A stretch of DNA of 64,000 nucleotides, taken from NCBI RefSeq assembly GCF_019649055.1, contig NW_026570223.1, positions 186,001 to 250,000 on the forward strand, in the 5' to 3' direction. This DNA comes from Paramacrobiotus metropolitanus. Taxonomy: Eukaryota; Tardigrada; Eutardigrada; Parachela; Macrobiotidae. A program made the translations under genes and the position numbers. The stretch's first letter is position 1. Each line of letters begins with the position of its first letter. The notes beneath the pieces are model-generated. The model was not told the DNA's origin. It did no database searches and saw nothing but the letters and a program-made list of their open reading frames with translations. This document shows, piece after piece, positions 23,678-61,706 of the stretch.

Positions 23678-25598
23678 TCAGACTTCCGGTTGCTCTGTTG
23701 AGCACAGGATTACGGTCTTGACATTGACGTAGAGTGGAGCAGATAGGACAAACAGCACCGTGTTGGCCACATCCTCGGTACGTAGCCGCTGATACTCGGA
23801 AGCGGTCAAACGGGACGCGGCAGGTCGGCTCTCGGAAGCAGCATCGGCGAAAGCACGCGGCATCAGTTGCGTGTCCGCCACCACCCCGGGACTGATATCC
23901 TAACGATGAGAAAATGTTTGAAATGCATGTCCGATGCCGTAAACGTATACATACAGTACCTACGTATTTAATATTTATTGTTAGATGCTCTTTTACCGGC
24001 CCAATGGTGCCGTTAAAAAGTTCATAGAATAGTTCTATGATGACAAATATATCGACTATATTCATTTAACGTTCATTTAACTGTCACACGTTCATTTTAA
24101 CTGTCTTCCGACGTTGTATATACATAATTTATTAAAATACAGTGTTTTATTATCCTGTTTCAGGAAGCATTAATTCAGTTACGTAAACAGACGAGGATCA
24201 ATTACACTTAATAAAATTAATACAATCAAAAGGTACAAGTATGTACCATTTGCCAACTTATTTGTACATTCTACATTTTCATTATCACCTTCGTTCTTTT
24301 CATTGTTTAACTGCTTTATGCAGTACAGATATACGTGCATTGAGAATGTTGTCATTTAATAAATAATCTTGTAGATTAAACCGAATTAGAATCTTTCGAT
24401 CATGATGGTCATGACTTTGCTATAACACATGGTTAGAAATGCGGAGATTTACCGTTATTCGAATGTTATTCTTCGGTGTCATCGCGCGCACTTGCCGGTA
24501 CAGTGCTTCCGCCAGTGCCGTCACCATGTGTTTGGTGGCCGAGTAGAAATGCATGGGACCGTAGGTGATGTTCTTATGTCCACCATAACTGCATTAGTAA
24601 TAACAATTATTGTATCATTAGTATGTACTTTAATTCAGAAGACTTCCTGCATGTACGGGGATATAATTTCCAAACTGTGCGTATCAGTGTATGTACCTGT
24701 TAATGAGAATAATATGGCCGTCGGTTATCCCATTTTTCTGCATGAGTTTCAGTGTTTCCCTGGCGCACATGCTCATTCCTAGCACGTTTGTCTGGTTGAA
24801 AAAAATATCATTTCAAGTTCGTTTCCAAATGTACATGTATGTGCGGTGCGGTGCGGCAGCGTTTCCGGCTTGGGTGTTATCAGCTGATACTATGCATATT
24901 TGGATACGCGTATAGACTGTACCTGGTGTCGTGTCGGCTCATTTAAATATACTCCTACTTTTTTAATTTTTAAATACAGTAATACCGTACGCGCTGGAGT
25001 GTACCTGGAACATGTCGAGCCATTTCTCTGACTGTCCGGTAAGAAAATCGCCCAGTTTGGCTATACCAGCGTTATTGATGAGGACGTCCACGTGGGAGTA
25101 GCGCTGCTCGATGTGGCTGAACATCCGCTGAATGTCCGCTTCACTAGTAACGTCGCACTGTACCGCTTCGATCCGTCCATTTCCGGCGGTTTCGTGCTTC
25201 CTCACAAGCTCCTTCGGACACATGTAGCAACGCGGGTTACTTGCAATTTGCAAAAAAGATTACCGGTTTGGAAAATGCAGTGCAAATTTTACCACTTAAA
25301 ATATATTTTAATATTAGGTACGTTGATCATGAGCGTAATGCCTCTCCAGAATTCTGCGAAAAATAAATACGAGCGGCCAACGAAAAATCGCACGCAAATA
25401 TAAAATACAAAAGAAATTTTGACATGAAAACGAAGGAATTACAAGTTATAAAAATAATAAAAGTACCTCAATGGTGCTAATATTCCTGGCGCAGGCGACA
25501 ACGTTCATACCGTGCTGCGCCAGTGTGTCGGCTATGGTGTATCCAATCCCGGAGGAGGCCCCGGTTACGAGGGCTGTTCGGCCTTTCCAGCGCTCCAT
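23678..25598 (-). CDS. Short-chain dehydrogenase/reductase, DHRS11-like (copy A)
   Basis: Five exons on the - strand: 25467-25598, 25005-25211, 24697-24791, 24453-24588, 23678-23899; 263 residues, all junctions GT-AG and in phase. Classical SDR landmarks are intact: cofactor loop TGASSGIG (from residue 12), CDVT, NNAG (90-93), active-site serine at about 145 and YSATK (Tyr160, Lys164), then SPGVV. The opening [19 protein letters not shown] and the segment [13 protein letters not shown] are typical of the DHRS11 group of NADP-dependent reductases. The likely role is reduction of a ketone or steroid-like substrate in the cytosol; the substrate is unknown. It shares every exon boundary with the SDR at 60157-61706, so the two arose by duplication. 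Exon 1 and exon 5 pieces of the same family occur at 36166-36330 and 41329-41535. Confidence 0.9.
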
Positions 25599-26550
25599 CC
25601 TTTTACGATCGCGCTCACATCAACGGTGTATTCATAAAAAACTTTTTGCTTTACTCACTGTCAGCATTTACTACATCAAAGCCGTGTACCGGGAGGGTCT
25701 TCAGAATTTCACATACGAAGTCATACAATTTTGCCCAAAGCTCGTGAAATAGAACAGATCATTATATGGCCTTGCATATCTGTACCAAGTAGCTACAAAC
25801 TACCGCTTCCGGCATTATGGTTTTTCAGTTTGCGATATACGTTAATGTGATTATTTTCATCGACGATTAAGGAACGGTATAGAACACTGTATTTAAACCG
25901 TACGTTATTAGACATGTACGTACACTGTATAAACCATACGAAAAATTTATTCTACTATTAACCAAGTGTCTTTATACCTGTATACGATATGCGCCGTTAA
26001 CTAGCTGCATGCAGTAAAGTAATAATTAATCGCAACTTAAGTATTGTAATATTTTTACCGCTAGCCTTAAAGTTTCACTGACATCAGTAACATCATAATA
26101 ATTTACTTTAGCAGTAGCATGATATAAATATATTAGGTTATTTTGTAATACTGACTTGTAACTACCCATACATTATAATAATTATAATGGAAATGTAAAA
26201 ACAACTAAAATTATTTTAGTTGTACAAAAGTGTCATTATTATGCGACTGGGTTTACTGTATACATAACCAAATGTTATGCCGTAATCAACACTGCAGCGC
26301 TGTGCTGTCCGCGTTGTAAAACGTGATATAAATAGGCAAAGGTAGGTGCGTAAAAATAAAAAAATTATTAACATCAGTCGAGGATTCAGAAATTGCCAGA
26401 GTTTTCAAACTGCGCGATACATGCACCGGAACACAGTACTACGGATCACCAAAATATATCCTTACGATTTACTGTATTACAGTTATACAGATACTCGTAC
26501 CAGTTAACAATAAATCGATCATAATCATATCAATGTGAAGTGGGCGAGTA
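25599..26550. other. Spacer between SDR copy A and DGAT2 copy A
   Basis: AT-rich with short palindromic TA/AT runs, no supported gene or RNA. The 150 bp next to 25598 presumably hold the SDR promoter. Confidence 0.45.
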
Positions 26551-27867
26551 TCAGTCGATGAAGGACAGCTGCGATTCCGGATGGCCATAGCGTGTTTTGT
26601 GGCAGTCAAAGAGATTCCGCAGTTCCTGTAAGTAGCGCTGGTGCAATGCGTCAATCTCCGCCTACAAAATTTCCAGATGTGCAACAAAGATTAGTTCAAG
26701 TACATAAAGTACAGAAAAACCCTTCGATAGACAATTTCTACAGTAGGCATTTGCACCTGTGATGGATGAGAATTTTCTTCTACGGGAATCGGTGCTCCGA
26801 CGACCACGGTAATGGGAACACGTTTCGGCAATAGACCGCTACCACCGAAAAATCCCCGGCCTTTTATTAATGCCGGGCAGAATCCGAGCACTTTCTTTTG
26901 GACAAAGCGCTGGAAACGGTAGACAACGGAATCACGGTGGAAGGCTAACTCGTACGTATCGTTCTCACCAAAGGCAAATATGGGAACCAGTTGCGCTCTG
27001 CAAGGAAAACAGCGTTAACGTGATGGCGGCAGATAAAGGTCAAGATTGTCTCACTTCCCCATGCTGGATTGCAGCCTTGACGAAACCTGTCCCCAAAGAA
27101 TAAATACTTGAACTTGTTTGTACTCGTATAAGTCTCGACTCGCGACATTTTTAAGACATTATTTAAGCATTAGCAATGCAATTTTTATTAGTAACTGACA
27201 ATCAAAATTAAGGAGATGGATGACCTTTGCGGTTGCGCAGCACCAGCTTGACATTATGACAATCAATCTCAAAGATCTCCCGCGCTCCGCCAGTGATAAT
27301 AGCCACCGCGGTCCCCGCCCCTTTCGTCATCCAGTAATCTATACTTTTTCGACTAACATCACACACTCCAAACGCCATCGTGTACTCGCGCATTAGCGGG
27401 ACTTGCATCATAAACTTCTGCCCCAACCCTATCACATTGATCCCGGGAAACACTTCCCGCACTCCCAGTGCCTCCGTGAATAAGGCTGTCATAAAGCCGA
27501 AGGCCATGGTTGGTCCATGCGGGTGTCCGGCAAACAGGTACTTCCGGCGCGGATCCAGTTCCGCTGTCTTAACCAACCGGATAGGGAAGTAGTCGCGTAC
27601 CCAGTGCCAGAAAATGGAGCTCCGGAAAGCCGCACTGCGACGACCGCCGCGGGAACTCTGGTCCCAGTCATATATATACCATAGCACGTAGAGTAACGGG
27701 ATCACGTACAGCCTGCTAGGGAAGAAGACGAAAAGAACGGGAAAGAAGAGGAAAAACAGGAAGATCACCGAGCCAAAGATGAACATGATGAAGAGATGCA
27801 AGGCCACAGCAAAGGTCTGTAACGCATGCTGCAGGGATTTCTCATCGATCGTTAATGACTGCAACAT
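26551..27867 (-). CDS. DGAT2-like diacylglycerol acyltransferase, copy A (one splice donor lost)
   Basis: Four exons on the - strand: 27225-27867, 27059-27086, 26757-26997, 26551-26661; 340 residues if spliced like its sisters. Two adjoining N-terminal hydrophobic segments (about 15-65) would form the membrane hairpin of DGAT2 in the endoplasmic reticulum. The family motifs YFP (93-95) and HPHG (115-118, catalytic histidines) are present, as is GRGFFGGSGLLPKR near the end. The enzyme family transfers fatty acyl groups from acyl-CoA to diacylglycerol or related acceptors to make storage lipid. Oddity: after the 28-bp exon 2 the expected GT donor reads GG (positions 27058-27057), whereas copies B and C have GTAA there. 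Using the nearby GTGAGA would shift the frame. The gene may therefore be dying or need an unusual splice; the rest of the frame is open. Confidence 0.75.
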
Positions 27868-29819: not shown

Positions 29820-32562
29820 TCATTTCTGTCCCTCTTGGTCCACCAGAGTGAGATCCATCTGACCAGTCCAGTTGGCGCCTGCAATAAATCCAGTTCATTT
29901 CTCACTTTCCATATTACGACACGGAAGTATAACAGACCAACAGACCTTACTAAGCGTACAATAACGATTCTTTAAAGAAAGCCGTCTCACGCATGTAGTT
30001 ACCCTTTTTCATCGTCATCACCGTACAGGCAAGACTGCGGTTCGGTTCGGAGAGCCGGCAGGGATGCGGGCGCCAAATATCGAGACTTTCGTCGTAGAAC
30101 TCGATATCACAACGAAGATCATCGGCGAAGCCGCCAAGAACATAGATCTTGCCATCCACATACGCACATCCGGCTCCACAGCGATTGCTAATCATATCGC
30201 CTGCAAATTCGAGCGGACAGCGATATAGAAGTACTCGTACAAGCATTCATAATAATGGAAATATTATATAGCTGCCTTAAGTCAAACTCAGCAAGTCAAA
30301 AGCAGCAGCCTACTTTTCTTCAACCACCGATCGTTACTGGTCTCGTAAGCCTCGACGCAACGCCCATTGTCACCGTCCGAGTATCCACCTACGAAAGAGA
30401 AAACTTTACCATATAACAATTGTAAAATCGGAACTTTGGGATGACGACTAGAAACACAATTTCTCCCGTACCGATAACGTAAATAACGCCATTCAAACCC
30501 ACACAGGCACTGCACCATCGGCGTGCAGTGGGCATGTCGGCCAGCTTATTCCACGCATCCACAGCTGGATCGTAGTAGAAGACGGAGTTAAGCGCTATAA
30601 GATTTTCTCCTGATTTTGTCGTTCCACCGAAAACGTACAGCCGGTCATTCGTGGCCACCATGGCAAAATTTGCTAGCGGAAGTGGCAGTCCAGCTACAGA
30701 GTGCCAGACATTTTTCTGTGGGTCGTAAAATTCTACGGTGGCCATCAATTCGGCATCATCGTTACAGCCACCAACAGCGTAGACACAACCATTAAGAGTA
30801 GCCACACCACCATAGGCGCGGTAGGACAGCATAGGCGCCAGGTTCGTGCATCCACCACGAAAGAGGTCAAGCCGGCGAGCTTGGTACCAACTCTTAGCGG
30901 TACATACGACCACTGAATCCTCCAAAACCGTTAAACCATATGCAGTAACGCGCTGCGGAAGCGTTGGTTTATTGATGCGCCAGACAGCCGGCATGGATGG
31001 ACTGAAGACCTCCACTGAGGCCACACCGGCATCGGTCGCATCGCCCGCAACACAAACAATAACCTTGGGCAAACCTCGTAACAGCAAAAATATACACTAA
31101 AAAACTAAAACAATAATAGTGCTATTAATACAAATTTTTGTATGGTTTAAATGTGCCTTTTATAAGTACCATGTTTCGGATACGAACTAAGTACCATATA
31201 ACAAATTACACATTAGCAACACTTCGGCTTACTGTAAGATTCTCGTGGTCGACATCGGGAAATTATTGATTGGGGATTGCGACCGGTTAGTTGGACCTCA
31301 AGACTCGGCGACTGAAGTGAGAAATTAACAGCGCCAGAGTGGATAAGCCCAGTAAAAACAGCCAAAATATAATTTTCAAGACGTGTGGGAGACAGAAATG
31401 GCACACGGATATGCTGCAAAACGTCGGATAACTGCGCCTTCCGACCGTCCTGCTCATAATCGGACCAGCGCTTCACAGCCTCAAACACTTCATCCTCGTG
31501 TTCAACGCTCAAGTCATCTGATGCTGTCAGCTCAATGACCTACAAATTTCAATATCTTCGAAATGCACAGCGAATGTTTCAAGCTATCTACCTGATGCAA
31601 TTTGAATTATCACAGAACAATTAAACAAAACCAAGTACCAGTAATTACTAATTACAGTCGCAGCAGTAATGCAGTTATCCCATCTGATTTTCCGTTACAA
31701 CTTATAGGGCGAGTACTAATGAAGTTTACTTTTAAAACATGCAACAAGTCTAACGACCACAAGCATGAGAAATTTCCGGCTGTACCAAAAATCCACACCA
31801 AAAACAACCAAATACCTGTTGTCCGTCCAGCTGCAGGAACTCGATGCTGCTTGCAATTCGGACAAAGTTCTGACATGCCAAGGCTTTGGCCTTGTCGGCC
31901 AGATGCGGATTGTTGTGCGTCTGCGCCAGACAGTACACCTGCAGACAACTAAACACATCCAGGCGAGATTCCAGGAAATCCCAGCACAGTTTAGGACGGG
32001 AGACAAGTCCAAGAAGAGCGCCGCAACGAGAACTGACTCAACACTGTCGTCATCCAGGCAGATTTGTAAAGTGTACGCGTATGTCACCAACCTGCGAAGG
32101 AAGACAAGTGGAGGGCTAATCTCCACTGATTCTCCAGTATAGTTTATACCGCATCGACCACGAAATAACAAGCTAAGCAAAAAGATAAAATTCAGCACAA
32201 CCGAAACTTGGAAAAAAACTGAAGTAATTTGACGGTTATGAGTTGACATGTACAAAGCGTTTTGTAACTTACTTGCTCAGTACGTTAAAGGAGATATTCT
32301 GCAACGGGATCTCCACTTGGGAAGATTCTTTCCAATCAGTTGAAAACATGCTGCGAAAGTAGCCGCTGTGCGCAATGAGCACCACACGATGGCAGGGAAT
32401 CCCAGTTGATGAATCTTCAGCTCCTTTGAGGATTACGTCGCACAGAACTCCACTGCTCTTCAGCTCCTGCAGCCCCTCCAAGAATCCCTGCACCACGCTG
32501 CTGTCCACAGAGGGACGGGCACTGGCGGGATCTGTGCTGGGTTGCGCTTGATCTGCAGACAT
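29820..32562 (-). pseudogene. BTB-BACK-Kelch gene, copy A, with a 1-bp frameshift
   Basis: Seven exons on the - strand: 32273-32562, 31816-32091, 31233-31539, 30472-31074, 30388-30314, 30003-30200, 29820-29878, with the same boundaries as copies B and C. Exons 1-2 hold the BTB domain (GVLCDVILKG, CHRVVLIAHSGYFRSMF), exons 2-3 the BACK domain and exons 4-7 the kelch repeats (YAVGGCNDD, YVFGGTTKSG, YVLGGFADD). Exon 2 has 276 bases where B and C have 277: a single base is missing at 31994/31995 (TTTAGGACGGG against TTTAGCGACGGG). This shifts the frame soon after LVAALFLDLSPV and would remove BACK and kelch. Everything after the lesion is otherwise open, so the loss is recent or a sequencing error. 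Intact relatives are substrate adaptors of CUL3 ubiquitin ligases. Confidence 0.78.
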
Positions 32563-33276
32563 GATGAGATGGGACAGTGGCGCTCAAAAGTCACAGAAGA
32601 TACAGGAAACTGTTGTACTCGTTGTCACTGTTCAGGAGTTACTGTCAGCTAGACGATCATCTGAAATGCCAACACCACACGGCATGAATAACAATAGATT
32701 AAATCAGAATTCGTAAACTATCAAGTGAAAACCGCGGAAAATCATATTAGCTGACTGAAAATATTAAAGTATAAAAACTGAAAAGTCGATAACGAATGTT
32801 TAACTGTCATGACTGCGTTAGTGATATCTGCTTTAGTACCGATAAATGCGTGTATCGTACTTCTGTTGAACTGCGTGGATCTGGCAGTAGGGTGGAGTTA
32901 CTTACACGTTTTTGCATTTCACTTTTCAAAATCTTACTTCGCATATGTAACTTACCAACCGGATGTAGCGCGCACAAACGGTTTTTACTCAACGTACATA
33001 CATAATACAAAATCATTTGAGGATACAGCATACCAAAGTGTTTGGGAGTGCGCGAAAGTGGAAGCTTTTGTGTATGTACCAGTATTTCGCTCCATGTACC
33101 TTGTCACTTCCCTTAACGATGATTACAAAGAAAGGTTACTATTGGAAGCTCTTCATTGCGTATCGTAAATATGGTCGAAGACGCAGCCATCATGTACAAA
33201 CAGTATGTACAAGCAGGAGTACAAAACTAACAGCTTCCCACATCAAACATAACCTGATTTGAGTATCATCAACAAT
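32563..33276. other. Upstream region of Kelch copy A and start of a segmental duplication
   Basis: No gene. From about 32706 the sequence is repeated, with divergence, from about 34797 (shared words include GTAGCGCGCACAAACG and TTGTGTATGTACCAGTATTT). Confidence 0.55.
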
Positions 33277-33498
33277 TCTTAGATAACGTCAGACTCCAGC
33301 GGCGTTTGCGGCCATCGTCTTTTTTAGCAGTAGTCCTTGTGCTTCTTGGAGCATTCGTCGTCTTTGCCATTACGAGTTCCCTTTGAAGCCTTGACCTCGC
33401 CGCAGTTTTGGTTTGGCGTTTGCAGTTGGTGCTAGAATCCTGTACTGAGCACTGGAAATCCGGAAAACCTTTTATGGAGGGTCAGCACGGCGAAGGTA
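33277..33498 (-). pseudogene. Remnant of the secreted cysteine-rich gene (exon 2), unit 1
   Basis: Aligns with exon 2 of the intact gene at 52118-52366 (shared GCACTGGAAATCCGGAAAACC and GTCAGCACGGC on the + strand), but has substitutions and indels that break the frame. Its upstream end is joined to a DGAT2 exon 3 remnant instead of its own intron. Confidence 0.75.
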
Positions 33499-33506
33499 CT
33501 TTCTTA

Positions 33507-34235
33507 CCGGGGATTAACTGCTATTTTCATCTGCGGGAATCGGTGCACGTGCTCCGATGACAGCCGTGGTGGGGACGCGTTTTAGCGCTAAACCGCTACC
33601 GAAAGCACTTTTTTGGACAAAACGCTGAGAGGCGGTAGACGATGCAATCGCCGTGGAAGGCATATTTGTACGTGCCGCTCCCACCGAAGGTAAACACGGA
33701 AACGAGGTGCGCTCTGCAATCAAGCAGCATTAACCCAATGACGGCACGACCAAGGTCGAAATCGTCTCATTTCCCCATGTTGGATGGCACCCAAATTTAA
33801 TGCTGTCTTGACTTGTAAGAAACGTAAATGTATTTCTCTTTTCATGTATGTATTAGAAGCTGAAGTAATTATATCTTCGAAAATCATCGGTTAAAGGTGA
33901 CAATTCTAGGCTAAAAGGACCGAAGCGGCATCGGATGACCTTTGCGGATGACGGATGCGCAGAACCAGCTGGACATCATGATAATCGGTTTTAAATCGCA
34001 CCGGCATTTTCGCCATGAAATACTCAATATGTATTTGGCCGGCTGGCATCGCAGACTCCGGACGCCGTAATGTACTCTCGCAGGACAGGTGCTTGCAGAC
34101 GCAGTAGAGGGATTGCATAATAAACTTCTGGCCTAACCCGACCACATCGATTTCAGCGAGTACTTTCCGCGCTCCTACTGAGTGCTGCGGTGAGCAATTT
34201 GTCCATGAATCCGAATGTCGTGGTGTGTCTGCGGA
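33507..34235 (-). pseudogene. DGAT2 remnant (parts of exons 1, 2 and 3), unit 1
   Basis: Exon 3-like sequence at 33530-33720 has lost the middle part encoding the FCPALIKGRGFFG region. Exon 2-like sequence is at 33766-33815, and the 3' part of exon 1 at 33908-34235, recognisable from ATGACCTTTGCGGATG and ATAATAAACTTCTGGCC. Several frame breaks are present. The order on the - strand is still exon 1, 2, 3. Confidence 0.75.
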
Positions 34236-35514
34236 TGCAACGTACCAAGAAGAATTGGTCTGTTTGAATTTGGTTTCCTCTTGTTACAGCATTACATACA
34301 AGAAATCACATACAAAAATGATATTATTTCGGAACTGGTAAACCCTGATGTATCTGTACGAGTACATAAGCGCATTAACGTATTGGCTAGCCGATTCTGT
34401 TTATGATTACATATAAATAACGAGTAATTCATTCTGTAGTTTATACACTCGTGTTATACTTATTAAAGGTTCCATCAACATTCTGTAGGCACCTACCGAC
34501 TTTTACGATATACCGATACCGGTCAGAGGATGTTTTTCCGCGTACCGCTGTTGCCTATATCGTCGCTGTTACCTATTTATGCAGTTTTGTAAAGAACGCA
34601 ATTACTGCAGTTGTTTCCTAATGATAACCTTTCGCATTTTGTTACGACGTTAATTTTACCATCCTTCCCGAGGAGTACTTTTATTGACCTGTACCATGCT
34701 GCAGTGCATGTTCTGTTGCCCACAAATCGTAACTGATAATAAACACCGCAGCACTAAATTCCGGAAACGAATTCCTTTGCCGGTTTCCTTTGCCGGAATA
34801 CGTAAACTATTAAGTGGAAACCGTGGAAAATCATATTATCTGAATGAGTAAATTAATGTATAAAAGCTACAAGTCGATCACAAATGTTTAACTGTCATGA
34901 CTGTGTTACTTCAGCTGAACTGTGGGGATCTGGCAGTACGATGGAGTTGTACTGCCAGTAGCTGATCATTGCCCAACCTCTGTCACAATGCGCTCTAGCA
35001 CTGTAAGTGGGCGCTGTGCAAGTAAGTTGCGGCATTTTTTTTCCAGTTTAAAATAAATTTTAAAATTTTGTGGAATTCCTTGTCAAAACGATTTTTTGCT
35101 TATGTCCCTTTATTTGCAAAATGTGTATGAGATCGATTCATAATGAGAGTTTTGGTACATGTTCTTGCATTTCAAACTTACCAACCGGATGTAGCGCGCA
35201 CAAACGATTTTCACCCAATGTATACTCGTACCAATCACTTGAGTACAGAATGCAAAAACGTGTTTTTGAGGGCGCGAAAGTGAAAGCTTTTGTGTATGTA
35301 CCAGTATTTGGCGCCATGTACCGGGTCACTTCCCTTAACAATTACGCAAAAAAGGTCACAAAAGTTCACTCTTTATTGCGTATCGTAAAATATGGCTGAA
35401 TACACAGCCATCGTGTACAAACAGTATGTGAAGTTGTGCACGGAGAAGTACAAAACTACCAGATTCCCACATCAAACATGACCTGATTTGAGTATTATTC
35501 GCACTTAGATAAGG
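34236..35514. other. Spacer within the segmental duplication
   Basis: No gene. 34670-34795 resembles 28857-28975; 34797-35500 is the leader of unit 2 and repeats 32706-33276. Confidence 0.55.
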
Positions 35515-35725: not shown

Positions 35726-35739
35726 TTTTCTTACCGGGG

Positions 35740-47279: not shown

Positions 47280-49897
47280 GTAAAGTCAGTCCGTCCAACG
47301 CTGAAGATTGACCACGTTATCCACATAGATTTGCGACATCCGGTTTCGTATTGGTCTTGGGAAAGGAAGTGTAAAATCGATGTCCACGACGTGAGTACAC
47401 CAGTAGAAAATCATTACAAACTTCTGGTTCTGAAAAACTCGAACACACATTGACGCAACCCTACTTATATTTACAAATGTTTTTGTAATTTTCAATTAAC
47501 GCGCTAATTTAATTTAACGATTCAGTTGTTGAAAATTGCCGCAAATACAAATCAAAATTATTCCAGAAACGCCACCTTCAAAATAAACCTTGCGAAAATC
47601 TTTCGGTCAATGAAGTATATAACATTGTATGGCGTAATATTGCGACAATGACGCATGAAGGGAGAATGAATGGAGCGAGATAAGAAGACAATGCGGATAA
47701 GATGGGGAGAGACAAAGGCACTAGAGCAATACTGCGTAAAGCGAGTGCATTACAATGGGGTGAATTTGAGTGATGAGTGGCAAGACAGAGTTATGAGGAT
47801 CAGCAGTGGAGACAGGATGATAGGGGCAAGAGAGAACCTGTGCTCTCTGTTTGCATGAAATGATGCGACGGGAAGGTATGAATACCTCAGAACTGGTGAG
47901 GCGTGAACAAGAGAAAAGATAGAGCGGGGAGAGAATCGGGCCAAAGTTACTTTCCTAATAAAATCGAGAGGTGCTTCATCGGGCCAAATGGAAAATGAAT
48001 ATCCAGCGAATGCAATGATCTTCCCTGTTCTGGCTATACAGAATTGCTGAGAATAGTACGACCGGCTAAAAAAGATAATCGACTGGCAAAACCAAGATTA
48101 AAAAAAGGAAAATAGGTGACAAGATGTGACACATGTTTGGCTGCTAATAAAATTATAATAAGAAATAACAAAAGAGTGGCAAGAAATAACAAAAGATGCA
48201 TACTGTTAATATTACGGAAGTGGCAGTACTATCTGTTAAGATTCTGTTCTTGAATTATTGAAAAGATGTACTTACGCCTTTACACTATGACATATAAATT
48301 AACGAAACAAGTACAAAAAGATTAAATCACGTCGAGAAATGTACTGTCGTAATCTGCTGCTTTACAAAAAAATTATTCGCTAACCAGAGTTAAGTCCAAA
48401 CCAATATCAGCAAAACAACATCTGACAATGCATAACTTCAGAACAAATACTTTTTTATGCCCGAACTATGGAAGGGACGCCCATCTTTCCAATACCGCGA
48501 TATGCGCACGAAATATACAATTTTTTTTTAAAAACAAATTTCGCGTTTTAATATAAACAAAATACTTACCGTCAGAAGCACTGTGCAGCAGTGATGATGG
48601 TAGACTACCAATAGGCGAGCTCGACCGGTGGGACACAAAGTTGCCAGTAATTTTTTAGCTGTTGTGCATATGGCAGTTGTTTTCGAAATTATGACACTTG
48701 CTGAGCTTTCGCGCATTAGATCGTCCGATGTTTAGGGCTTGACTAAGAGAATCAAACCAACAGGGACCGTTTATAGGTGCTCCTGGATGACAACACGACA
48801 CAATAGAAACAGAGGGCACGGACAAGGGCAGGCGTTTATAGCCGTGGCCCGTCTATATGGTCGAAAATTAGGTCACGACGCAACGAAACAAGGATGGGCG
48901 TTTATAGCACGCACCCGTATATGAGCGAATATAAATAGATTTGCTCGTGCAAAAGCCCTTTTCCATAAATTTTCAGTGATCTTCTTAATTTCGTAGATCT
49001 ACTTTAATTTCATTTTGCGTAATTAGCGTAATTCGGTTTAACACAAATACTTACTTGAGCTGCCGTGGTACACAGTGGTGATCAAGCTGCGTCTTCTGTT
49101 CGGCGGAATTATTATTCAAATTAATGCGCGCATTACTGTTACCATAAACTTTGCACAACCTTAAAACTGAACCAATCAATTTTTCTCTTTGCAGTCGAAG
49201 CAAACATTCATAATTGTCTGTTACCAAAATCAATGCGCATATTGCAGTACTACCACATAACCGCACCAGTTAATGGGAATTTCGAATAATAGTTCATGTT
49301 TTTGTGCCAAGCATGCCGTCATGTGTTGTGAACGCTGACATTTAGATTTAGGATCTTATTTTCGTGGAATGCGATAAGTTGGAATTTATTCTTAACTTTA
49401 AATGATGGTACATCTGGTTTTAGTGATTTTATTGAAAATTTTATAATTTAAGTTGACATTAACGATCTCTGGCTGCCCAAAAGGAGACGACAACATCTGG
49501 CGTTTTAAGTCATTAGCCGAACCAGCGGCGGAAAATTAATGATAGATAAGATTTAAGCGGTGCTGCGCATATGCAATAACAATTTAAATATATCCCAAAA
49601 TTCATTTCTGCACATTACATTGAGATAAACCATTACCGTTACCATCGCGAGGCTTTTCACATCTGGCCATCATCAAACAAATATTCAGCGAATCAGCGCT
49701 GTCAACCTCAAAAATTTTCTCACTTATCTGCCCTTTTCTCAATAACAATAAATACTGCTGCAGCCTTCAAAATCAACGGGCAGGCATCATTAATAACTCA
49801 GTACAATAATATAATATTAACAAAATTTTCAAAGAGCACTTTAGTTTACAAAACCGAAACAAATTTTCACGTACGAACGACAATTAGACCAGAAAAG

Positions 49898-51112
49898 TTA
49901 AATCTGCCATCTGGAATACGCCGGTTGTGCACTACCGGTGTCCTGAGATTCTGCAGACCCAAACTGTTGCGCCTGAGATGGTAATTTACCGGATGTGTTA
50001 AAAGTCAGTTGCTGCGTTGTTGGTGGATGCTGTGCTGCACCGAATGACATCGGATAACGATCTTCAGAATCTTGTTCTGCCTGTGCATACTGTGCCTGCG
50101 TAGAGTGGCCAGCTCCAAACGGGCAAGCATACGAAAGATGATCATAGTTACCGCAATTAAAGCATCCATTGTCTTGGCTTGGCGCATCTGTGAGTCGAAG
50201 GGTTGACTGGTTCGCATTACCCGTTAAGTAATTCTGAGAAAGATCGTAACTGCCCTGTGATTCGTTATTCTCCTGTAAACACTTTATTTGTTCAGCAAGA
50301 TGCTTTAGTCTTTCATCCAAACCTTTCATCAGGTTATGAGCGACAATCTCTATCTGATTAGAGCTAGGCGCTGTCGGTTGGCTGTATAGCGACGAGAGAT
50401 TTGACTGATCTGTAACATTATTGGACGCCTGGTATGACGAATTTTGATTCTGCATCGCGAGCTTGTATTGTTGCTTAACGGACACATCACGTAAACGATT
50501 GAAAAAATCGGCTACGGTTCTGGGGCTGTTAGTCACGAATGCCGGTTTAAATTCAAGGGCCAAGGCTTCAAAGAGACGAACTGTCTTTTCTGCTTCGGTA
50601 GCTGCGGGATTACTGGCTTCCACGTAATCAAGGACACGGTAAACAAAAGTACGAGGATCTGTAAATGCTAATGTACGACAACCTTCATGCATAAGATCAA
50701 GTTCAAAACGAGTTTTTCCGAAAGCTGTTAAAAAATGAGATCGAAGGTCTGGCCATGTGATACCTGCTGGTACTGCGGTATACCAGCGAAGAGCGTTGTT
50801 CCTCAAACAGAGCGCAAAATGTTGGATTCTGTTAGCTGGTGTGAAATTATTAGCAACGGCCATCGTCTCAAACTGTGTTAAAAAGTCCTGAGCGTCTTCG
50901 TAAGGAAAACCACCAAACTTCGGCAAATCACCCATTTCGAGAGATGTTATACGGGTAACTGCAGCGGCATTCTGGTTATTCAAAAAATTTAATAAATTCT
51001 GATGTGCAGTAGCGTTATTCTGTAGGCTTTGCTGTAAAGCTGCATTCTGCTGAGCGGAAGCGGCATTAACGGTGTTAAGCATATTCTGCAGTGCTTGCGG
51101 GTCTATAGCCAT
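49898..51112 (-). CDS. Retrotransposon Gag protein with CCHC zinc knuckle
   Basis: Single open frame of 404 codons. The N-terminal 50 residues are rich in glutamine, asparagine and alanine and likely helical. Residues about 60-220 look like a retrotransposon Gag capsid domain (ALRWYTAVPAG, then WPDLRSHFLTAFG and RTLAFTDPRTFVYRVLDYVE). Near residue 315-330 a zinc knuckle CFNCGNYDHLSYAC fits C-x2-C-x4-H-x4-C. The tail is Q/S/T-rich. Gag would form the particle that packages element RNA. The frame is followed by a stop and no pol frame, so it is not a Gag-Pol fusion. The start lies about 350 bp inside the 5' LTR; a GTAAGT donor at 51313 in the leader suggests the transcript is spliced before the start codon. 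Confidence 0.88.
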   Translation of the reverse strand: MAIDPQALQNMLNTVNAASAQQNAALQQSLQNNATAHQNLLNFLNNQNAAAVTRITSLEMGDLPKFGGFPYEDAQDFLTQFETMAVANNFTPANRIQHFALCLRNNALRWYTAVPAGITWPDLRSHFLTAFGKTRFELDLMHEGCRTLAFTDPRTFVYRVLDYVEASNPAATEAEKTVRLFEALALEFKPAFVTNSPRTVADFFNRLRDVSVKQQYKLAMQNQNSSYQASNNVTDQSNLSSLYSQPTAPSSNQIEIVAHNLMKGLDERLKHLAEQIKCLQENNESQGSYDLSQNYLTGNANQSTLRLTDAPSQDNGCFNCGNYDHLSYACPFGAGHSTQAQYAQAEQDSEDRYPMSFGAAQHPPTTQQLTFNTSGKLPSQAQQFGSAESQDTGSAQPAYSRWQI

Positions 51113-51313
51113 GATATTGACTTGCTGGTAATTAGTACTTATTAATTATTGCAAACAGCCTGCCAACTGCGGAAAGTTGACTATACGATCGTTAATTAAA
51201 TTTTCTTGAAAAATGGCGCGTTAATACCGAATTCGAAAATAGTATTAGGATCGGTAACAGTTAAGATTGTTCTTTTTGGGAAAAAAAATTGGACGTGATA
51301 CATAAGGACTTAC

Positions 51314-51413
51314 CTGTTGAAACAGGGAGGCGGAGGGGTAGCGGTGGTAAAGGCTAAAGGGCACTGTTCAACAGGGAGGCGGAGGGGTAGCGGTGGTAAA
51401 AGTTAAAGGGCAC
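51314..51413. repeat. 50-bp tandem duplication in the gag leader
   Basis: Two units containing CAGGGAGGCGGAGGGGTAGC and GGTGGTAAA, ending AAAGGGCACTG; one small indel and two substitutions separate them. The first unit ends exactly at a splice-donor-like GTAAGT on the - strand. Confidence 0.88.
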
Positions 51414-51442
51414 TGAAACTGTCGACTTGAAAAAATTTCGTT

Positions 51443-51459
51443 CTCGGTATGCGACTCCA
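51443..51459 (-). other. Primer-binding site of the gag-only element
   Basis: TGGAGTCGCATACCGAG lies two bases after the 5' LTR on the element strand; TGG pairs with the CCA end of a tRNA. The tRNA species was not identified. Confidence 0.6.
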
Positions 51460-51461
51460 AG

Positions 51462-51646
51462 TATAACGGGCAACGGAACCGGCTGATACTGCTCGAAATA
51501 TTGCTAACCCAACGACTGAAGATACCGCAGGAAATACGTCGCTATATATACTGAACCGCTCGTACAGGAACAGGAAATACAAGAGGCGGGACAACCAAGC
51601 ACATACTCGTACATACTAATACATGAGACAGGAATCCCCCGTTACA
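51462..51646 (-). repeat. 5' LTR of the gag-only element
   Basis: Contains a TATA-like TATATATAGC (51542-51551 on the - strand) in the position expected for the element promoter. One difference from the 3' LTR. Confidence 0.92.
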
Positions 51647-52117: not shown

Positions 52118-52865
52118 TTAATTCTTCTTAGGTAAGGTCAAGCTCCAGTGGCATTTGCCACCATCGCCTTTAGAGCAGCAACCTTTGTGCTGCTTCGTGC
52201 ATTCATCGTCCTTGCCATTGCGGTTCCCCTTGAAACCCCTGATCTCGCCGCAGTTCTTGTTGGGGTTCTTTTTTCCGAGGAGATGATTGAAATCCTGCGT
52301 CCAGCATTGGAAATCCGGAAAACCGTCGTCCCGTTTGTGGCGGCTCAGCACGGCAGAAGCGCCGGACTACCGGATAACAAAAATCATTTATTTAGAGAAT
52401 AATTTTAATAGTATTTGTTGTGTACGAGTATGTGGTATCAATACCAATTCTTGCTGTCTTGCAATTACATGTAGATTTCTACGTCTGCCTAACAAAATAG
52501 CCGATAGCATAAACCTGTTATTGCAAACAACGAAAGAAGTCAAAATCATACTAAATAAAGCAGTAAATAAATTTTACTCTGTAGTACAATACGAAAACAA
52601 TAAATACTAAAAGACAAACCGAAAGGTATTGCGTTGCTACTTTATACTTTTGTACTATTCATTGGTAGCAAAATAAAAAAAAAACAATAAAAGTCATTAA
52701 ATTAGTGCTCGTAACTGTATTTTCGAATAGATTTTTTACGGCGATATATAATTGATAGCATTTTGATAGCATTCATAGCATTTTTACCTTTTCGGCGTTG
52801 GTTTGTTGGATGAGCACCAGAAGCGCCAGCGAAGAAGCCAGGATAAGTGTAGCAAAACGAGTCAT
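52118..52865 (-). CDS. Small secreted cysteine-rich protein with a furin-like site
   Basis: Two exons on the - strand, 52788-52865 and 52118-52366, in phase 0; 108 residues. Residues 1-24 are a signal peptide (hydrophobic core LILASSLALLVLI). RHKR at 35-38 matches a furin-type cleavage site, so a mature chain of about 70 residues starting DDGFPDFQCW is expected. It has six cysteines at 47, 65, 82, 89, 90 and 98 (a CC pair preceded by three single cysteines would be 3-2-1), enough for three disulfides, and many Lys, Asn, Gly and Asp. I do not recognise the family; a secreted peptide, defence molecule or matrix component are all possible. Two broken, chimeric copies of exon 2 lie at 33277-33498 and 35515-35725, showing that it belongs to the duplicated cluster. 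Confidence 0.75.
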
Positions 52866-53872: not shown

Positions 53873-55165
53873 TTAGTCGATGTAGGATAACTGAGCGTCC
53901 CGATATCCACACTGTGCTTTGTATGCGTCAAAAAGATTGTGCAGCTCCTGTAAGTAGCGCTGGTGGAGCGCATCTATCTCTGCCTGCAAGATGGTTAAAG
54001 AGATAACGTTACTGAGATATGAAAACGTTCTTTCAGAATTCCCGGGTGGGTCTTACGTGGGATGGGTTAGGATTCTCATCGACGGGTATCGGTGCTCCTA
54101 CGACCACGGTGATGGGAATGCGTTTAGGCAGCATACCGATACTGCCGAAAAATCCCCGGCCTTTAACCAGTGCCGGGCAGAATCCTAGGATTTTCTTCTG
54201 GACAAAACGTTGGAAGCGGTAGACGAGGGAATCACGATGGAAAGCCAGATCGTACGTATCGTTTTCACCGAAGGCGAACACGGGAACGAGTTGCGCTCTG
54301 CAATGCACCGTCGTTGATAAATGATTCGATAGCGATAAATGTATTGTCTCTTTACCCGTGCTGGATTGCAGCCTTGACGAAACCTACAAATTACAACACA
54401 TGTTGCACAAACCAGGGTTGTTTTGTTACGTTACGTACAACTGGTACAAGATGGCAGTGTTACAGCACAATACGGTAGCACTGCGAGCGATCTATGCATA
54501 AAATGGTGAAAGTTTGCGTGACCTTTGCGAGTGCGCAGCACCAACTTGACATTATGGCAATCAATCTCAAAGATCTCCCGTGCTCCGCCAATAACAATGG
54601 CCACTGCCGTCCCTGGCCCTTTTGACATCCAGTAGTCGATACTCGGCCGACTGACATCACACACCCCGAACGCCATCGTGTACTCGCGCAGTAACGGCAC
54701 TTGCATCATAATCTTCTGTCCCAGTGGCCGCACCTCGATCCCGGGAAACATCTGCCGGAATCCCAATGCTTCCGTGGACAATGCCGTCATGAATCCGAAG
54801 GCCATGGTTGGTCCATGCGGGTGCCCGGCCAGCAGGTATTTGCCGCGCGGATCCAGTTCCGCCGTCTTGATCAAACGGATGGGGAAGTAGTCACGCACCA
54901 AATGCCAGAAGACGGAACGCTGAAAGGCCGGCCAGCGACGACCTCCGCGGGAAGTCTGGTCCCAGTCATACACGTACCATGCTGCGTAGAGTAACGGGAT
55001 CACATACCACCAACTGGGGAAGAAAAAGAAAAGGACCGGAAGGATGAGAAAAAACACGGTAACTAACGGGCTGAAGATGAAGATGATGGACAAATGCAGG
55101 GCGACGGCGAAAGCCTGCAGACCGCGCTGCAGGGAGTATTTGCCTATCCCTAGAAAGTGCAGCAT
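53873..55165 (-). CDS. DGAT2-like diacylglycerol acyltransferase, copy B (intact)
   Basis: Four exons on the - strand: 54523-55165, 54356-54383, 54057-54297, 53873-53983; 340 residues, every exon the same length as in copies A and C, all donors GT. The N-terminal hydrophobic hairpin, YFP (93-95), HPHG (115-118), LREYTMAFGVCDVSR, RKGFVKAAIQHGAQLVP and GRGFFGSIGMLPKR follow the DGAT2 order. The likely reaction is acyl-CoA plus diacylglycerol (or a wax or monoacylglycerol acceptor) to neutral lipid at the ER. An in-frame ATG at 55210 would add 15 residues, but 55165 is the start shared with the other copies. Its 3' neighbour on the same strand is the cysteine-rich gene and its 5' neighbour is copy C, 2.5 kb away, head to tail. 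Confidence 0.9.
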
Positions 55166-57695: not shown

Positions 57696-58942
57696 TCAGT
57701 CGATGTAGGACAACTGCGCGTCGGGATAGCCACAGCTGGCTTTGTGCGTGTCAAAGAGTTTGTGAAGCTCCTGTAAATAGCGTTGGTGCAGCGCGTCAAT
57801 CTCCGCCTGCAGAATGATTCAAAAGCATTTAAACCTCTGTTGTACGTGTTTCGGAAAATCTCTTACATGGGAAGGATGAGGATTCTCTTCGACGGGTATT
57901 GGTGCTCCGATCACCACGGTGATGGGAATGCGCTTCGGCAGTAGACCGCTTCCGCCAAAGAAACCCCGGCCTTTAATTAATGCCGGGCAGAATCCCAGAA
58001 CTTTTTTCTGGATAAAACGCTGGAAGCGGTAGACAATGGAGTCGCGATGGAAGGCTAGCTCGTACGTGTCGTTCTCACCAAAGGCAAACATGGGAACGAG
58101 TTCCGCCCTGCAGTGAAACACGGTCAATTTGATTCCGGTAAATAAAGGTCAAGATGGTCGAACTTACCCGTGCTGAATGGCTGCCTTGACAAAACCTAAA
58201 ACCCCAAGTGCATCTTCAGTGTTTATTTCATTCAGAAGATAGTTAAAATAGTTGCAGGAACGTAATACGTATTAACTGAGAATGGAAAGTTTTTGTGACC
58301 TTTGCGAGTACGCAGCACCAACTTCACATTATGGCAATCAATCTCGAAGATCTCCCGCGCTCCACCAATGACAATAGCCACCGCCGTTCCCGGCCCTTTC
58401 GCCATCCAGTAGTCGATACTCGGCCGACTGACATCACAGATTCCAAACGCCATGGTGTACTCGCGCAACACCGGCACCTGCATCATAAACTTCTGACCCA
58501 ATGCCCGCACATTGATCCCGGGAAACATCTTCCGAAATCCCAAGGCTTCCGTACACATGGCCGTAATGAATCCAAAAGCCATGGTCGGTCCGTGGGGATG
58601 CCCGGCCATTAGATATTTTTTTCGGGGATCCAGTTCGGCGGTCTTGATTAATCGGACGGGAAAATAATCGCGCACCCAGTGCCAGAAGATGGAGCGCTGA
58701 AATGCCGGCCAGCGATGACCGCCGCGTGAACTCTGGTCCCAGTCGTACACGTACCATACCAGGTACAACAGCGGAAGGATATACCAACGACTGGGGAAAA
58801 AATAAAAGATCACCGGCATAAAGACATAGAATAACAAGATTACCGAACCCAGGAAGAAGACGATGAATAAATGTAATGCTACGGCGAATGTCTGCAAACC
58901 GCGTTGCAGGGATTTCTCGTCATTGGTCAATAATTCCAACAT
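57696..58942 (-). CDS. DGAT2-like diacylglycerol acyltransferase, copy C (intact)
   Basis: Four exons on the - strand: 58300-58942, 58168-58195, 57867-58107, 57696-57806; 340 residues, all introns GT-AG and phases 1, 2, 0 as in copy B. YFP (93-95) and HPHG (115-118) are intact, with two hydrophobic N-terminal segments, FPGINVRALGQKFMMQVPVL, HGAELVPMFAFGENDTYE and GRGFFGGSGLLPKR. Function as for the family: acyl transfer onto diacylglycerol or a similar acceptor in the ER membrane. The 28-bp exon 2 is unusually small but conserved in all copies. An upstream ATG (58993) is in frame but lies outside the conserved start. Copy C is closer to A than to B in the GRGFFGG region. Confidence 0.9.
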
Positions 58943-60156
58943 TTTTACTATTACATCAAGAGCCGAAATCGATCCCAGCGATGCAGTGATCAATTAGAAA
59001 AGTAAATTACCGTCAGTACTGACCAAATGCACAGATACTGTTTGCATCCGGTAATGTCGCAATTGAGTCGTTCTTGAATTAGTGCACTTGTGAGAATTAA
59101 GTGCAAAATAGCACATTATCGTAATAACGTCAGGGTTTGTTTGTAAAGCGGTGTATACGGGCTGTTTAGGTATGTGAACTACGATAAGAATTTGTTACAT
59201 TAGTGATTAGCGGCGTTGTGAACAAAACATATACTATCGCCGGATTCGCCGCTTTCAAAGGATGGCTGGCAGTGTATTTGTGTATGTTGTCGATGAGCAA
59301 CGAACGCCGGTTATTACCCGGCCTAATTCCCCGTAATAATTACACTCAGAAAATTTTGCAGTGCATGTGGTACTACTACTGGTAATGGTATAACAGCTGT
59401 GGGGCTGAAAAGATAAGGAAAAGTGCAAAATATCGCAGTAAGAAATCAGTTTTAACACGTGCCCGGGTGAGAATGACGGTGCGTTCAGTGCATTCGGTGC
59501 AATGAGTGCCCCGGGTTGATTGATAATACATTGATGCTTAAGGAAAATGCGCTTAATTACTTATAATTTATAACTAATGCACGTAAATCAAATATGTAAT
59601 CACAATATTCTTGCGGGCATAATTCATGACCATCTGTATAATTGGATTTAGGGCTAAAATTAATGAATTAATTGGACAGCTGCGGGAAAAGACAAGTTGA
59701 CCTTTGCCCCCTCCTGCATCTCACCAACAATCGCACAATATAAGTACTAGATGTTTTTGCGGCTCTTTGCGTGCACATTTAAAGCTTTTGTGCTTTATAT
59801 AACGAATGTAAAGCAACGGTTTTATTAACACAATTTTATAACGGCTGTAAGATGGCAACTAAACATTAGCAGGTACATAATAATTAAAATTTCCCATAAA
59901 CAATTTTCTGAATGCTCGCCAATGATTAAATTTCGTATTCAAAAGCTACCCTAGCCTCCCAATTATGTACATTTGTTTTGATTTAAGGCCGGTGTGTCGA
60001 ACGAGAAAAATTTACTCGTCCCGACAATTTTTATTGGAACACTAAGTGCATATACCAATAAACATTTAGGCAGAAATTTATTTTTAACTTGTTCGCGGGC
60101 AAACCGTGCCCAAGGATCGTCGCACCTCGTCACAAGTTATGTAAGCAGTCTGTGTG
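58943..60156. other. Spacer between SDR copy B and DGAT2 copy C
   Basis: AT-rich with short frames only; no gene, RNA or cluster remnant recognised. Confidence 0.4.
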
Positions 60157-61706
60157 TCAGCCGCTTTTTTGCTCCGTGGGTACAAGGATCATCTCTTGCA
60201 CGGTCACATGCGCCGGCTCACTGAGCACGTAAACAATAGCGTCGGCTATATCGCCGCTCTCCAGAAACGTGAATCCCTCCTTGACGTAGGGCGTATCACG
60301 GACGGCTGCTTCACCCAGCCAACGATTGGCAAAATCGGTAAGCGTTGCGCCGGGGCTGAGACTCTAAGATGCAACATTTGAAGTTATCTTATTTACAGAC
60401 TACAACACTGGTATTACGAGCATAATGACGATTTCTTAAGTTACGTACTCGTACGGTAACGCGGATGCTGGTGCCCAGGGCGGCTACTTCACGGCGCAGG
60501 CCCTCGGTTAGCGCCGTCACCATGTGTTTCGTAGCGGCGTAAAAGTGAATGGCATTGTAGTCGTTGATTTTATGCCCGGACACACTGCAATTACGGTCAG
60601 GCAGCTGATGATTGTTGTTATTCTCCTAATTTTATCCCACGTTTTATTAATAATTTATCGCTATGCCTACATGTTTACCGGTTTTTATATTTCACAGGTA
60701 CCCGCACGAAAGTGATGCGGAAAAACTATGCTGATTTGGTCGTGTTTCTGTATATTTCCAATTAAACTTTGCGCAAATTCGAGTGTTGCTATTATGTAGT
60801 TAGTTGGTCGTCTCTAAATCGCATCCCAGGTATGCGCTCAGATACGGACGTTTCATCGCTTGCGCACATTTTAACAGCACTTTGCAGAACGTCCAATTTT
60901 CCAACGGAGCTGGCGCGAAATCCGATCGACTTCGACCATTGAACTTCTAGCCAACTGGGCTTTTAATTCAAGGAGAAAAATATAATAGCATAGGTTTTTT
61001 AAAGTCGTTAGTTTCAGAAATCGTGCAGAATAAACGAATCCAGAATGCGCACGTTCGCATTCTGACCGCATCACTTTCGTGTGGGGTACGTTGATCGATG
61101 CAGTACGGTACTTTTACGTATTCTATTGCCTGGACGGTACCTGTTCATGTTGATAATGTGGCCACCGCGAATGCCATGTTTGACCATAAGTCTCACGGCT
61201 TCACGCGCACAAGTCGACAAACCCAGAATATTTGTCTAAAATGGGCCAATAAAAACGTTTTGTGTTTTCGAAGACAGGCACTTCACAACGAACGTACGTC
61301 AACCATTTGGCGCCACTGCCCCACGCTTCGCGTCAGCAAATCATCGGAGTGCGCCAAGCCGGCATTATTCACCAGGACATCCACACCTCCATGGACACCC
61401 TCAATCTCCCTGAACATGGCGACAATCTCCGCCTCCTGCGTGACATCACAGCGGATGGCGTGCACCACGCCGGTGCCGAGTGTACGTTGCTGGAGCTCCT
61501 GGTTCGAGGGTCAGTGCACAGTGTCTTGCGGTGCGTGTATGTAAGGTAAGTACAGTAGAAGCGCACGTACGTACCTCGATTGGCGCAATGTTACGGGCAC
61601 ATCCAATCACCGTCATCCCCGAACGAGCCAACCGTTCCGCGGTGGCCAAGCCAATTCCGGAAGATGCGCCGGTAATGAGAGCCGTTTTGCCTCTCCAGCG
61701 ATCCAT
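60157..61706 (-). CDS. Short-chain dehydrogenase/reductase, DHRS11-like (copy B)
   Basis: Five exons on the - strand: 61575-61706, 61298-61498, 61141-61235, 60455-60584, 60157-60363; 254 residues, all in phase. Exons 1 and 3 have exactly the lengths of copy A (132 and 95). TGASSGIG (from residue 12), CDVT, NNAGLA (88-93), the serine at about 143 and YAATK (Tyr158, Lys162) are intact, followed by SLSPGAT. The enzyme should use NAD(P)H to reduce a carbonyl in the cytosol; substrate unknown. It has diverged well away from copy A (for example in the C-terminal third), so this duplication is older than the Kelch and DGAT2 ones. It marks the right border of the - strand cluster. Confidence 0.9.

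Follow-up and report, generated by a model that had tools for sequence, protein, structure and literature searches.

Drosophila Dgat2, CG1941, and CG1946 are adjacent in the genome, and we know of no Kelch or short-chain dehydrogenase (SDR) genes interleaved with these paralogues. CG1941 and CG1946 are paralogues of Dgat2 (PMC9944249). In mammals, AWAT1, AWAT2, and DGAT2L6 are reported to form a DGAT2-family cluster that arose by tandem duplication and from which members were lost in some lineages (PMC6526905). The locus studied here lies in a 64-kb window, by which we mean the whole stretch of DNA analyzed. It shares tandem duplication and copy loss with the mammalian cluster and, like Drosophila, has three DGAT2-family paralogues in one invertebrate. 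The mammalian cluster, as described in that report, consists of one family, whereas the cluster here interleaves three others and contains eroded pseudogenes. We conclude that it is very probably an ordinary tandem cluster shaped by birth and death, with members of four unrelated families whose copies differ in age and in retention.

Gene content of the cluster

Nine genes occupy positions 23,678 to 61,706 of the 64-kb window, all on the minus strand. Three belong to the DGAT2 family, three are of the BTB-BACK-Kelch type, two are DHRS11-like SDRs, and one encodes a small secreted cysteine-rich peptide. A sequence-only reading had listed this set, with the same strand and ends, and every member was located. 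The cluster runs from the stop codon of SDR-L (23,678) to the ATG of SDR-R (61,706).

23678..25598, minus strand: SDR-L, DHRS11-like short-chain dehydrogenase; 5 exons, open frame
26551..27867, minus strand: DGAT2-A; 4 exons, 340 codons; GG in place of GT at the donor of intron 2
29820..32562, minus strand: Kelch-A (BTB-BACK-Kelch); 7 exons, one frameshift near 31994
38278..40926, minus strand: Kelch-B; 7 exons, 603 codons, no interruption
43351..46245, minus strand: Kelch-C; 7 exons, in-frame TAA at 44962
52118..52865, minus strand: gene for the small secreted cysteine-rich peptide; 2 exons, 108 codons, start at 52,865
53873..55165, minus strand: DGAT2-B; 4 exons, 340 codons, intact
57696..58942, minus strand: DGAT2-C; 4 exons, 340 codons, intact
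60157..61706, minus strand: SDR-R, DHRS11-like; 5 exons, 254 codons, catalytic residues present

The best PDB match of both SDRs is 1xg5 (E 3.7e-65 for SDR-R and 4.1e-60 for SDR-L), listed in the PDB as ARPG836, which we take to be DHRS11. Classical SDRs are recognized by the motifs TGxxxGIG and NNAG and by a catalytic Ser-Tyr-Lys, all of which are present in SDR-R. SDR-L keeps the other motifs but has Gly at the usual position of the catalytic Ser, which in 1xg5 is Ser and precedes the Tyr of YxxxK by 13 residues. The putative function of these enzymes is NADP-dependent carbonyl reduction.

The earlier account of the Kelch genes needs correction: one of the three (Kelch-B) is open, Kelch-A is frameshifted, and Kelch-C contains an in-frame stop. 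Direct reading of the sequence gives GT donors at exon 5 in all three genes, the exon-5 ends reported by the aligner being artefactual. In the Pfam search, the Kelch-B protein carries BTB, BACK, and Kelch domains together, the combination found in the KLHL family of CUL3 adaptors, and substrate adaptation for CUL3 is the putative function of the Kelch proteins. In contrast to that family, two of the three copies here are disrupted, and CUL3 binding by Kelch-B is putative.

The product of the peptide gene has a hydrophobic leader followed by six cysteines and may be a secreted disulfide-rich peptide. The full 108 residues matched no Pfam family at E 0.01, and the knottin-like family PF10530, considered for the peptide exon, was not assigned (E 0.014, below the family cut-off). 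In the self-alignment that the sequence-only reading had suggested, repeats were found within the cluster; copy-to-copy similarity is in direct orientation in all rows and extends through introns in several pairs.

Eroded copies among the genes

At least eight exon-sized remnants are interspersed among the genes (four DGAT2, two peptide-gene, and two SDR pieces), where the sequence-only reading had noted at least six; those found come from three of the four families, Kelch being the exception.

33273..33491, minus strand: peptide-gene remnant, exon 2; tblastn E 1.3e-16, intact peptide as query
33522..34238, minus strand: DGAT2 pseudogene, pieces of exons 1-3; tblastn, nhmmer, and spliced alignment
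35501..35719, minus strand: peptide-gene remnant, exon 2; tblastn E 6.7e-22
35749..36026, minus strand: DGAT2 pseudogene, exons 2-3; tblastn and nhmmer
36148..36278, minus strand: SDR exon-1 remnant, SDR-L type; blastn, tblastn E 0.011, nhmmer E 7.1e-12
37288..37593, minus strand: remnant of DGAT2 exon 1, which may be the 5' part of the 35.7-36.0-kb pseudogene; tblastn, nhmmer E 2e-48
41361..41518, minus strand: SDR last-exon remnant, SDR-L type; blastn, nhmmer E 1.3e-12

Local tblastn with five query proteins recovered seven of the eight main pieces, with E values of 1e-4 to 4e-12 for DGAT2 and the listed values for the peptide-gene and SDR exon-1 remnants; the SDR last-exon piece at 41.4 kb is absent from the tblastn matches and is supported by blastn and nhmmer. 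None of 20 dinucleotide-shuffled controls gave a tblastn match at E<0.05 (best, 0.11). The nhmmer search, with 16 exon profiles that covered every Kelch exon except 5 and 7, returned no match at E<1 in the window outside 23.6-61.7 kb. Inside that interval there was a single plus-strand match, at chance level (E 0.86 at 42,059); five triplet shuffles gave six matches with E<1, the best at 0.33. The peptide exon-2 profile contained both peptide remnants, which makes their nhmmer matches circular, and tblastn is the independent basis for them. No Kelch remnant was found in the window by tblastn or by nhmmer with these profiles. An additional, borderline DGAT2 piece lies at 36,305-36,371 (nhmmer E 0.0096).

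DGAT2 copies and an unusual splice donor

The spliced models of DGAT2-A and DGAT2-B, the two copies covered by the Pfam scan, contain the whole DAGAT domain (PF03982; E 9.7e-89 and 1.3e-84, respectively), and DGAT2-C is 81% identical to each of them across 340 columns. Exon 1 of DGAT2-C had no match among solved structures at E 1. The motifs YFP, HPHG, and RxGFxKxAxxxGxxLVPxxxFGE, which we take to be the DGAT2/MOGAT signature, occur at identical positions in all three copies. Scans with the DGAT2 alignment yielded 19 pattern matches in viral contigs and 69 in GTDB prokaryote contigs, with no relative in either. The encoded enzymes would act at the ER, acylating lipid alcohols or glycerides. 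Purifying selection is strong on the DGAT2 genes (dN/dS about 0.1; 0.08-0.15 among pairs) and weaker on the Kelch genes (0.31-0.40).

The description of the three DGAT2 genes as full length holds in that each has a frame of 340 codons, but DGAT2-A attains it only with a non-GT donor. The GG donor at intron 2 is common to DGAT2-A and both DGAT2 pseudogenes, and in DGAT2-A the longest of the three motifs straddles this intron. Splicing from a GT four bases downstream was considered and rejected on reading the sequence, as the frame shifts to an early stop. Among annotated Drosophila introns (release 6.04), the table consulted contains no GG-AG case (PMC4528330, Table 3). If DGAT2-A transcripts are spliced from the GG donor, selection would be maintaining a GG-AG intron in a coding gene. 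The shared donor is the oddity of the cluster most open to testing.

A tree of concatenated exons separates DGAT2-A and both pseudogenes from DGAT2-B and DGAT2-C with 99% bootstrap support, one of its rows being the 37.3-kb piece joined to the 35.7-36.0-kb piece on the assumption of a single pseudogene. The same split has 92% support for exons 2-3 and 88% for exon 1 alone, and thus the DGAT2 copies group by position.

Order and age of the duplications

Two DGAT2-peptide pseudogene blocks lie at 32.7-33.9 and 34.8-36.2 kb. Both lack 40 bp at the identical column of DGAT2 exon 3 and have an identical junction that fuses the end of this exon to peptide exon 2, so the block was duplicated when it was already dead. 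At least one two-family block has therefore been duplicated. In other respects the copies differ in age. Among the copies in the 64-kb window, 52 of the 69 fourfold sites shared by the two SDRs differ, whereas the three DGAT2 pairs differ at 41-57 of 121-130 such sites and the three Kelch pairs at 55-73 of 202-213. Divergence of the SDR pair is far above that of Kelch A-C (p 3e-12) and DGAT2 A-C (p 1e-4), and by this measure the two SDRs parted long before the DGAT2 and Kelch copies did. In each of the three Kelch pairs, exons 1-2 have diverged less at fourfold sites than the exons encoding the propeller (8/69 versus 36/105 in one pair, p 7e-4), and gene conversion or constraint therefore blurs the ages of duplication.

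The birth and death proposed in the sequence-only reading agrees with these observations: related copies stand side by side in one orientation, some intact, some disrupted, and some eroded to remnants. Its other proposal, that an ancestral SDR-DGAT2-peptide-Kelch cassette went through several rounds of duplication as a unit and is now eroding, we consider unlikely. The order DGAT2-peptide-Kelch does occur twice, as DGAT2-B, peptide, and Kelch-C and as Kelch-A with remnants of the DGAT2 and peptide genes, and the SDR remnants resemble SDR-L. Moreover, the divergence of DGAT2 A-B (41/121) does not differ from that of Kelch A-C (55/202, p 0.21) or Kelch B-C (73/202, p 0.72), so that a DGAT2-peptide-Kelch block may have been duplicated. 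The DGAT2 introns compared are at most 43-49% similar, so low that intergenic traces of a block duplication linking the left and right halves would have vanished. However, repeated copying of a four-family cassette predicts copies of equal age in all families, and fourfold sites give unequal ages; the divergence of the SDR pair relative to DGAT2 and Kelch, and an order kept in two places only, leave such a cassette unsupported. DGAT2 A-C is also more diverged than Kelch A-C (fourfold sites, p 5e-4), no peptide gene lies directly upstream of Kelch-B, and DGAT2-A and SDR-L stand in the reverse of the cassette order. It is very unlikely that several lesions are assembly or sequencing errors in a mostly intact cluster. 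Such an error could account for Kelch-A, whose ~600 codons are open but for one deleted base, but the Kelch-C stop codon differs by three bases from the matching codon of Kelch-A and by two from that of Kelch-B, and the GG donor recurs at three loci, so a single miscalled base explains neither of them. The remnants of DGAT2, in addition, are 23-41% diverged from the intact copies and have deletions in common.

SDR and DGAT2-family reactions could be consecutive, and the DGAT2 copies are retained by selection; both points would suit an adaptive, co-regulated lipid module, in which the SDR produces or consumes a lipid alcohol, DGAT2-family enzymes esterify it, and Kelch-CUL3 sets enzyme turnover, linkage and copy number being selected. 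Given two disrupted Kelch copies out of three, one SDR without the usual catalytic serine, and a peptide gene without any tie to the scheme, we regard this as highly improbable. It is extremely improbable that the locus is an animal metabolic gene cluster in which a linked SDR-DGAT2 pair converts a carbonyl to a lipid alcohol and then to an ester, with Kelch-CUL3 linkage selected and a DGAT2-A subfamily working via a GG-AG intron. The cluster is ordinary in kind, and there is no evidence for a lipid-ubiquitin module.

Under the preferred reading, a birth-and-death tandem cluster, unequal exchange and local segmental duplication would have generated copies in direct orientation at different times, with at least one duplication spanning two neighboring genes. 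Purifying selection retains DGAT2 copies, Kelch copies are held more loosely, two of three now being disrupted, and further DGAT2, SDR, and peptide-gene copies have decayed to exon-sized remnants. Neighboring genes need not share one pathway in such a process. The locus thus offers a local case of unrelated neighbor genes copied separately and together and then lost, including the duplication of a dead block.

Recent insertions

Two LTR insertions into the cluster are recent.

41584..42868, no strand assigned: short LTR element; 154-bp LTRs, 5-bp target duplication GTAAT
46832..51646, minus strand: LTR element; LTRs of 185 bp with 1 mismatch between them, target duplication ATGC (4 bp)

We considered whether the 4.8 kb that separate Kelch-C from the peptide gene hold a further gene and rejected this, as they make up the second of these elements. 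No polymerase domain was found in this element; its gag-like frame of 415 codons, at 49901-51145, has a CCHC knuckle that scores under the Pfam cut-off. The LTRs of the short element differ at 1 of 154 positions.

Organization of the cluster

The simplest account of the interval from 23,678 to 61,706 is a birth-and-death tandem cluster in which four families are interleaved: DHRS11-like short-chain dehydrogenases (SDRs), DGAT2-family acyltransferases, BTB-BACK-Kelch genes, and a small secreted cysteine-rich peptide gene. All cluster genes are encoded on the minus strand. Read as transcribed, from right to left, the order is SDR-R, DGAT2-C, DGAT2-B, the peptide gene, an LTR element, Kelch-C, a short LTR element, an SDR remnant, Kelch-B, a DGAT2 remnant, an SDR remnant, a DGAT2 remnant and a peptide-gene remnant, a further DGAT2 remnant and peptide-gene remnant, Kelch-A, DGAT2-A, and SDR-L. 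The birth and death proposed in the sequence-only reading is borne out by the coexistence of intact genes (DGAT2-B, DGAT2-C, and Kelch-B), disrupted ones (Kelch-A and Kelch-C), and remnants of DGAT2, SDR, and the peptide gene.

Genes were modeled by protein-to-DNA spliced alignment allowing GT-AG introns, frameshifts, and stops. Each DGAT2 gene has four exons and 340 codons; DGAT2-A and DGAT2-B are both 81% identical to DGAT2-C in protein sequence and cover nearly the whole of Pfam DAGAT. Kelch-B has 603 codons encoding BTB, BACK, and Kelch domains, Kelch-A is frameshifted by one base near 31,994, and an in-frame TAA interrupts Kelch-C at 44,962. The corresponding codon is ATT in Kelch-A (three differences) and TTT in Kelch-B (two), so the TAA is not one miscalled base. 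The peptide gene (two exons) encodes 108 residues with a hydrophobic leader followed by six cysteines, and its product matched no Pfam family at an E value of 0.01.

The nearest solved structure for both SDR-L and SDR-R is 1xg5 (ARPG836), which we take to be DHRS11. In SDRs the serine 13 residues before the tyrosine of YxxxK is catalytic. It is present in 1xg5 and SDR-R and replaced by glycine in SDR-L (NSYGGH, within 24,453-24,588, versus NSVSGH in SDR-R); SDR-L may be a non-catalytic or altered reductase.

Two LTR elements interrupt the array, and both look recent:

46,832-51,646, minus strand, LTR element of 4.8 kb; 185-bp LTRs with one base different; 4-bp target duplication ATGC
41,584-42,868, strand not assigned, TRIM-like LTR element of 1.3 kb; 154-bp LTRs with one base different; 5-bp target duplication GTAAT

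The longer element carries a gag-like frame of 415 codons whose CCHC knuckle falls short of the Pfam cut-off; a six-frame search at an E value of 0.1 found no polymerase domain, and the element looks non-autonomous. The shorter one adjoins an SDR last-exon remnant.

Remnants and a dead block copied again

The following pieces lie between the genes:

34,238-33,952, minus strand, DGAT2 piece (exon profile)
33,712-33,522, minus strand, DGAT2 piece (exon profile, two matches)
36,026-35,749, minus strand, DGAT2 piece (exon 2 and exon 3 profile matches)
37,593-37,288, minus strand, DGAT2 piece (exon profile)
36,371-36,305, minus strand, borderline DGAT2 piece (exon profile)
36,278-36,148, minus strand, SDR piece (exon profile)
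41,518-41,361, minus strand, SDR piece (exon profile)
33,491-33,273, minus strand, peptide-gene piece (tblastn; exon profile)
35,719-35,501, minus strand, peptide-gene piece (tblastn; exon profile)

Exon-sized remnants had been claimed for the same families as the genes. This stands for DGAT2, SDR, and the peptide gene, which gave tblastn, blastn, and nhmmer matches, but not for Kelch, for which neither profiles of exons 1, 2, 3, 4, and 6 nor the Kelch-C protein as query gave any. The tblastn E values were 0.011 for SDR exon 1, 1e-4 to 4e-12 for DGAT2, and 1.3e-16 and 6.7e-22 for the peptide gene; none of 20 dinucleotide-shuffled versions of the window produced a tblastn match at E<0.05. For the SDR piece at 41.4 kb, which tblastn missed, support comes from blastn and nhmmer. 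The peptide exon profile contained both peptide-gene pieces, whose independent evidence is tblastn.

Joint movement of more than one family is most clearly shown by a pair of duplicates at 32.7-33.9 kb and 34.8-36.2 kb, whose main piece is 80% identical over 1,022 columns. DGAT2 exon 3 is missing the same 40 bp in each, and its end is followed in each within about 20 bases by the second exon of the peptide gene; exon profiles found neither DGAT2 exon 4 nor peptide exon 1 in either block. As two lesions are common to both, the ancestral DGAT2-peptide block was already broken when it was copied. That a dead block was duplicated again says that copying at this site is independent of whether the genes work.

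A DGAT2-family tandem cluster with losses is already known in mammals (AWAT1-AWAT2-DGAT2L6; PMC6526905), and Dgat2 has two paralogues in Drosophila (PMC9944249). The mixture of families and the re-duplicated dead block seem less usual, yet neither is a new kind of thing. No relatives of the DGAT2 alignment were found in one viral and one prokaryote contig collection. The suggestion that neutral-lipid enzymes may be linked in function with a CUL3 adaptor finds no support here.

Duplication order and selection

A five-tip DGAT2 tree without outgroup separates DGAT2-A and both DGAT2 pseudogenes from DGAT2-B and DGAT2-C (99% bootstrap for concatenated exons; 92% and 88% for the parts). By simple counting methods, dS is 0.87-1.36 for DGAT2 pairs and 0.44-0.62 for Kelch pairs, and the SDR pair is saturated. 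Kelch-A and Kelch-B are the closest Kelch pair (0.44 versus 0.55 and 0.62), with overlapping intervals. Differences at fourfold sites number 41/121 (A-B), 57/122 (A-C), and 50/130 (B-C) for DGAT2 and 58/213, 55/202, and 73/202 for the same Kelch pairs. The SDR pair, at 52/69, is clearly older, so the idea that a four-gene SDR-DGAT2-Kelch-peptide cassette was copied whole is unsupported. A DGAT2-peptide-Kelch block duplication is possible, since DGAT2 A-B divergence is indistinguishable from that of Kelch A-C (p 0.21) or B-C (p 0.72); DGAT2 A-C is distinguishable from Kelch A-C (p 5e-4).

The 5' half of the Kelch genes is less diverged in these segments:

31,816-32,562, minus strand, Kelch-A exons 1-2 and intron 1 (copy comparison)
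40,149-40,926, minus strand, Kelch-B exons 1-2 and intron 1 (copy comparison)
45,507-46,245, minus strand, Kelch-C exons 1-2 and intron 1 (copy comparison)

In every one of the three pairs, fourfold sites of exons 1-2 are less diverged than those of the propeller exons (8/69 versus 36/105, 10/60 versus 37/105, and 13/64 versus 48/104; p 7e-4 to 0.012), and of three Kelch introns compared intron 1 is the most conserved, which suggests gene conversion or constraint.

The DGAT2 genes are clearly kept by selection (pairwise dN/dS 0.08-0.15; bootstrap intervals 0.05-0.20). The Kelch genes are kept more loosely (0.31-0.40; 0.24-0.51), and two of the three are now disrupted.

A GG donor in DGAT2-A

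Only one of the 36 introns in nine models lacks a GT donor: DGAT2-A intron 2 (26,997-27,059) begins with GG, where DGAT2-B and DGAT2-C have GT. Both DGAT2 pseudogenes (35.9-36.0 kb and 33.7-33.8 kb) have GG at the same site and fall in one clade with DGAT2-A, so the simplest reading is that the change came before they diverged. DGAT2-A seems, from its substitutions, to have been in use afterwards, which would need GG-AG splicing: its own branch has 7 synonymous changes and 1 non-synonymous in exon 3 (193 columns), and exons 3-4 together have 15 synonymous DGAT2-A-specific changes to 7 (neutral expectation 24% synonymous, p 2e-5) on a branch that includes time before the donor change. Exon 4 alone, with 2 synonymous to 5, counts against such use, and the alternative is that the GG donor has two separate origins and DGAT2-A died only recently. 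Table 3 of PMC4528330 lists no GG-AG introns in the Drosophila annotation; a testis-specific GG-AG site is reported for human CPSF3 (PMC4176328).

Flanking sequence

To the left of the cluster is an imperfect direct repeat (21,435-21,663; 99 bp, 74%). Plus-strand sequence at 14,800-16,200, outside the cluster, has strong matches to protein kinase domains (E 7e-11 and 9e-14) and, next to them, a GS motif of the TGF-beta type I receptor that scores below the family cut-off. On this evidence the window is most probably from an animal, and the locus is probably the gene of a TGF-beta type I receptor kinase.
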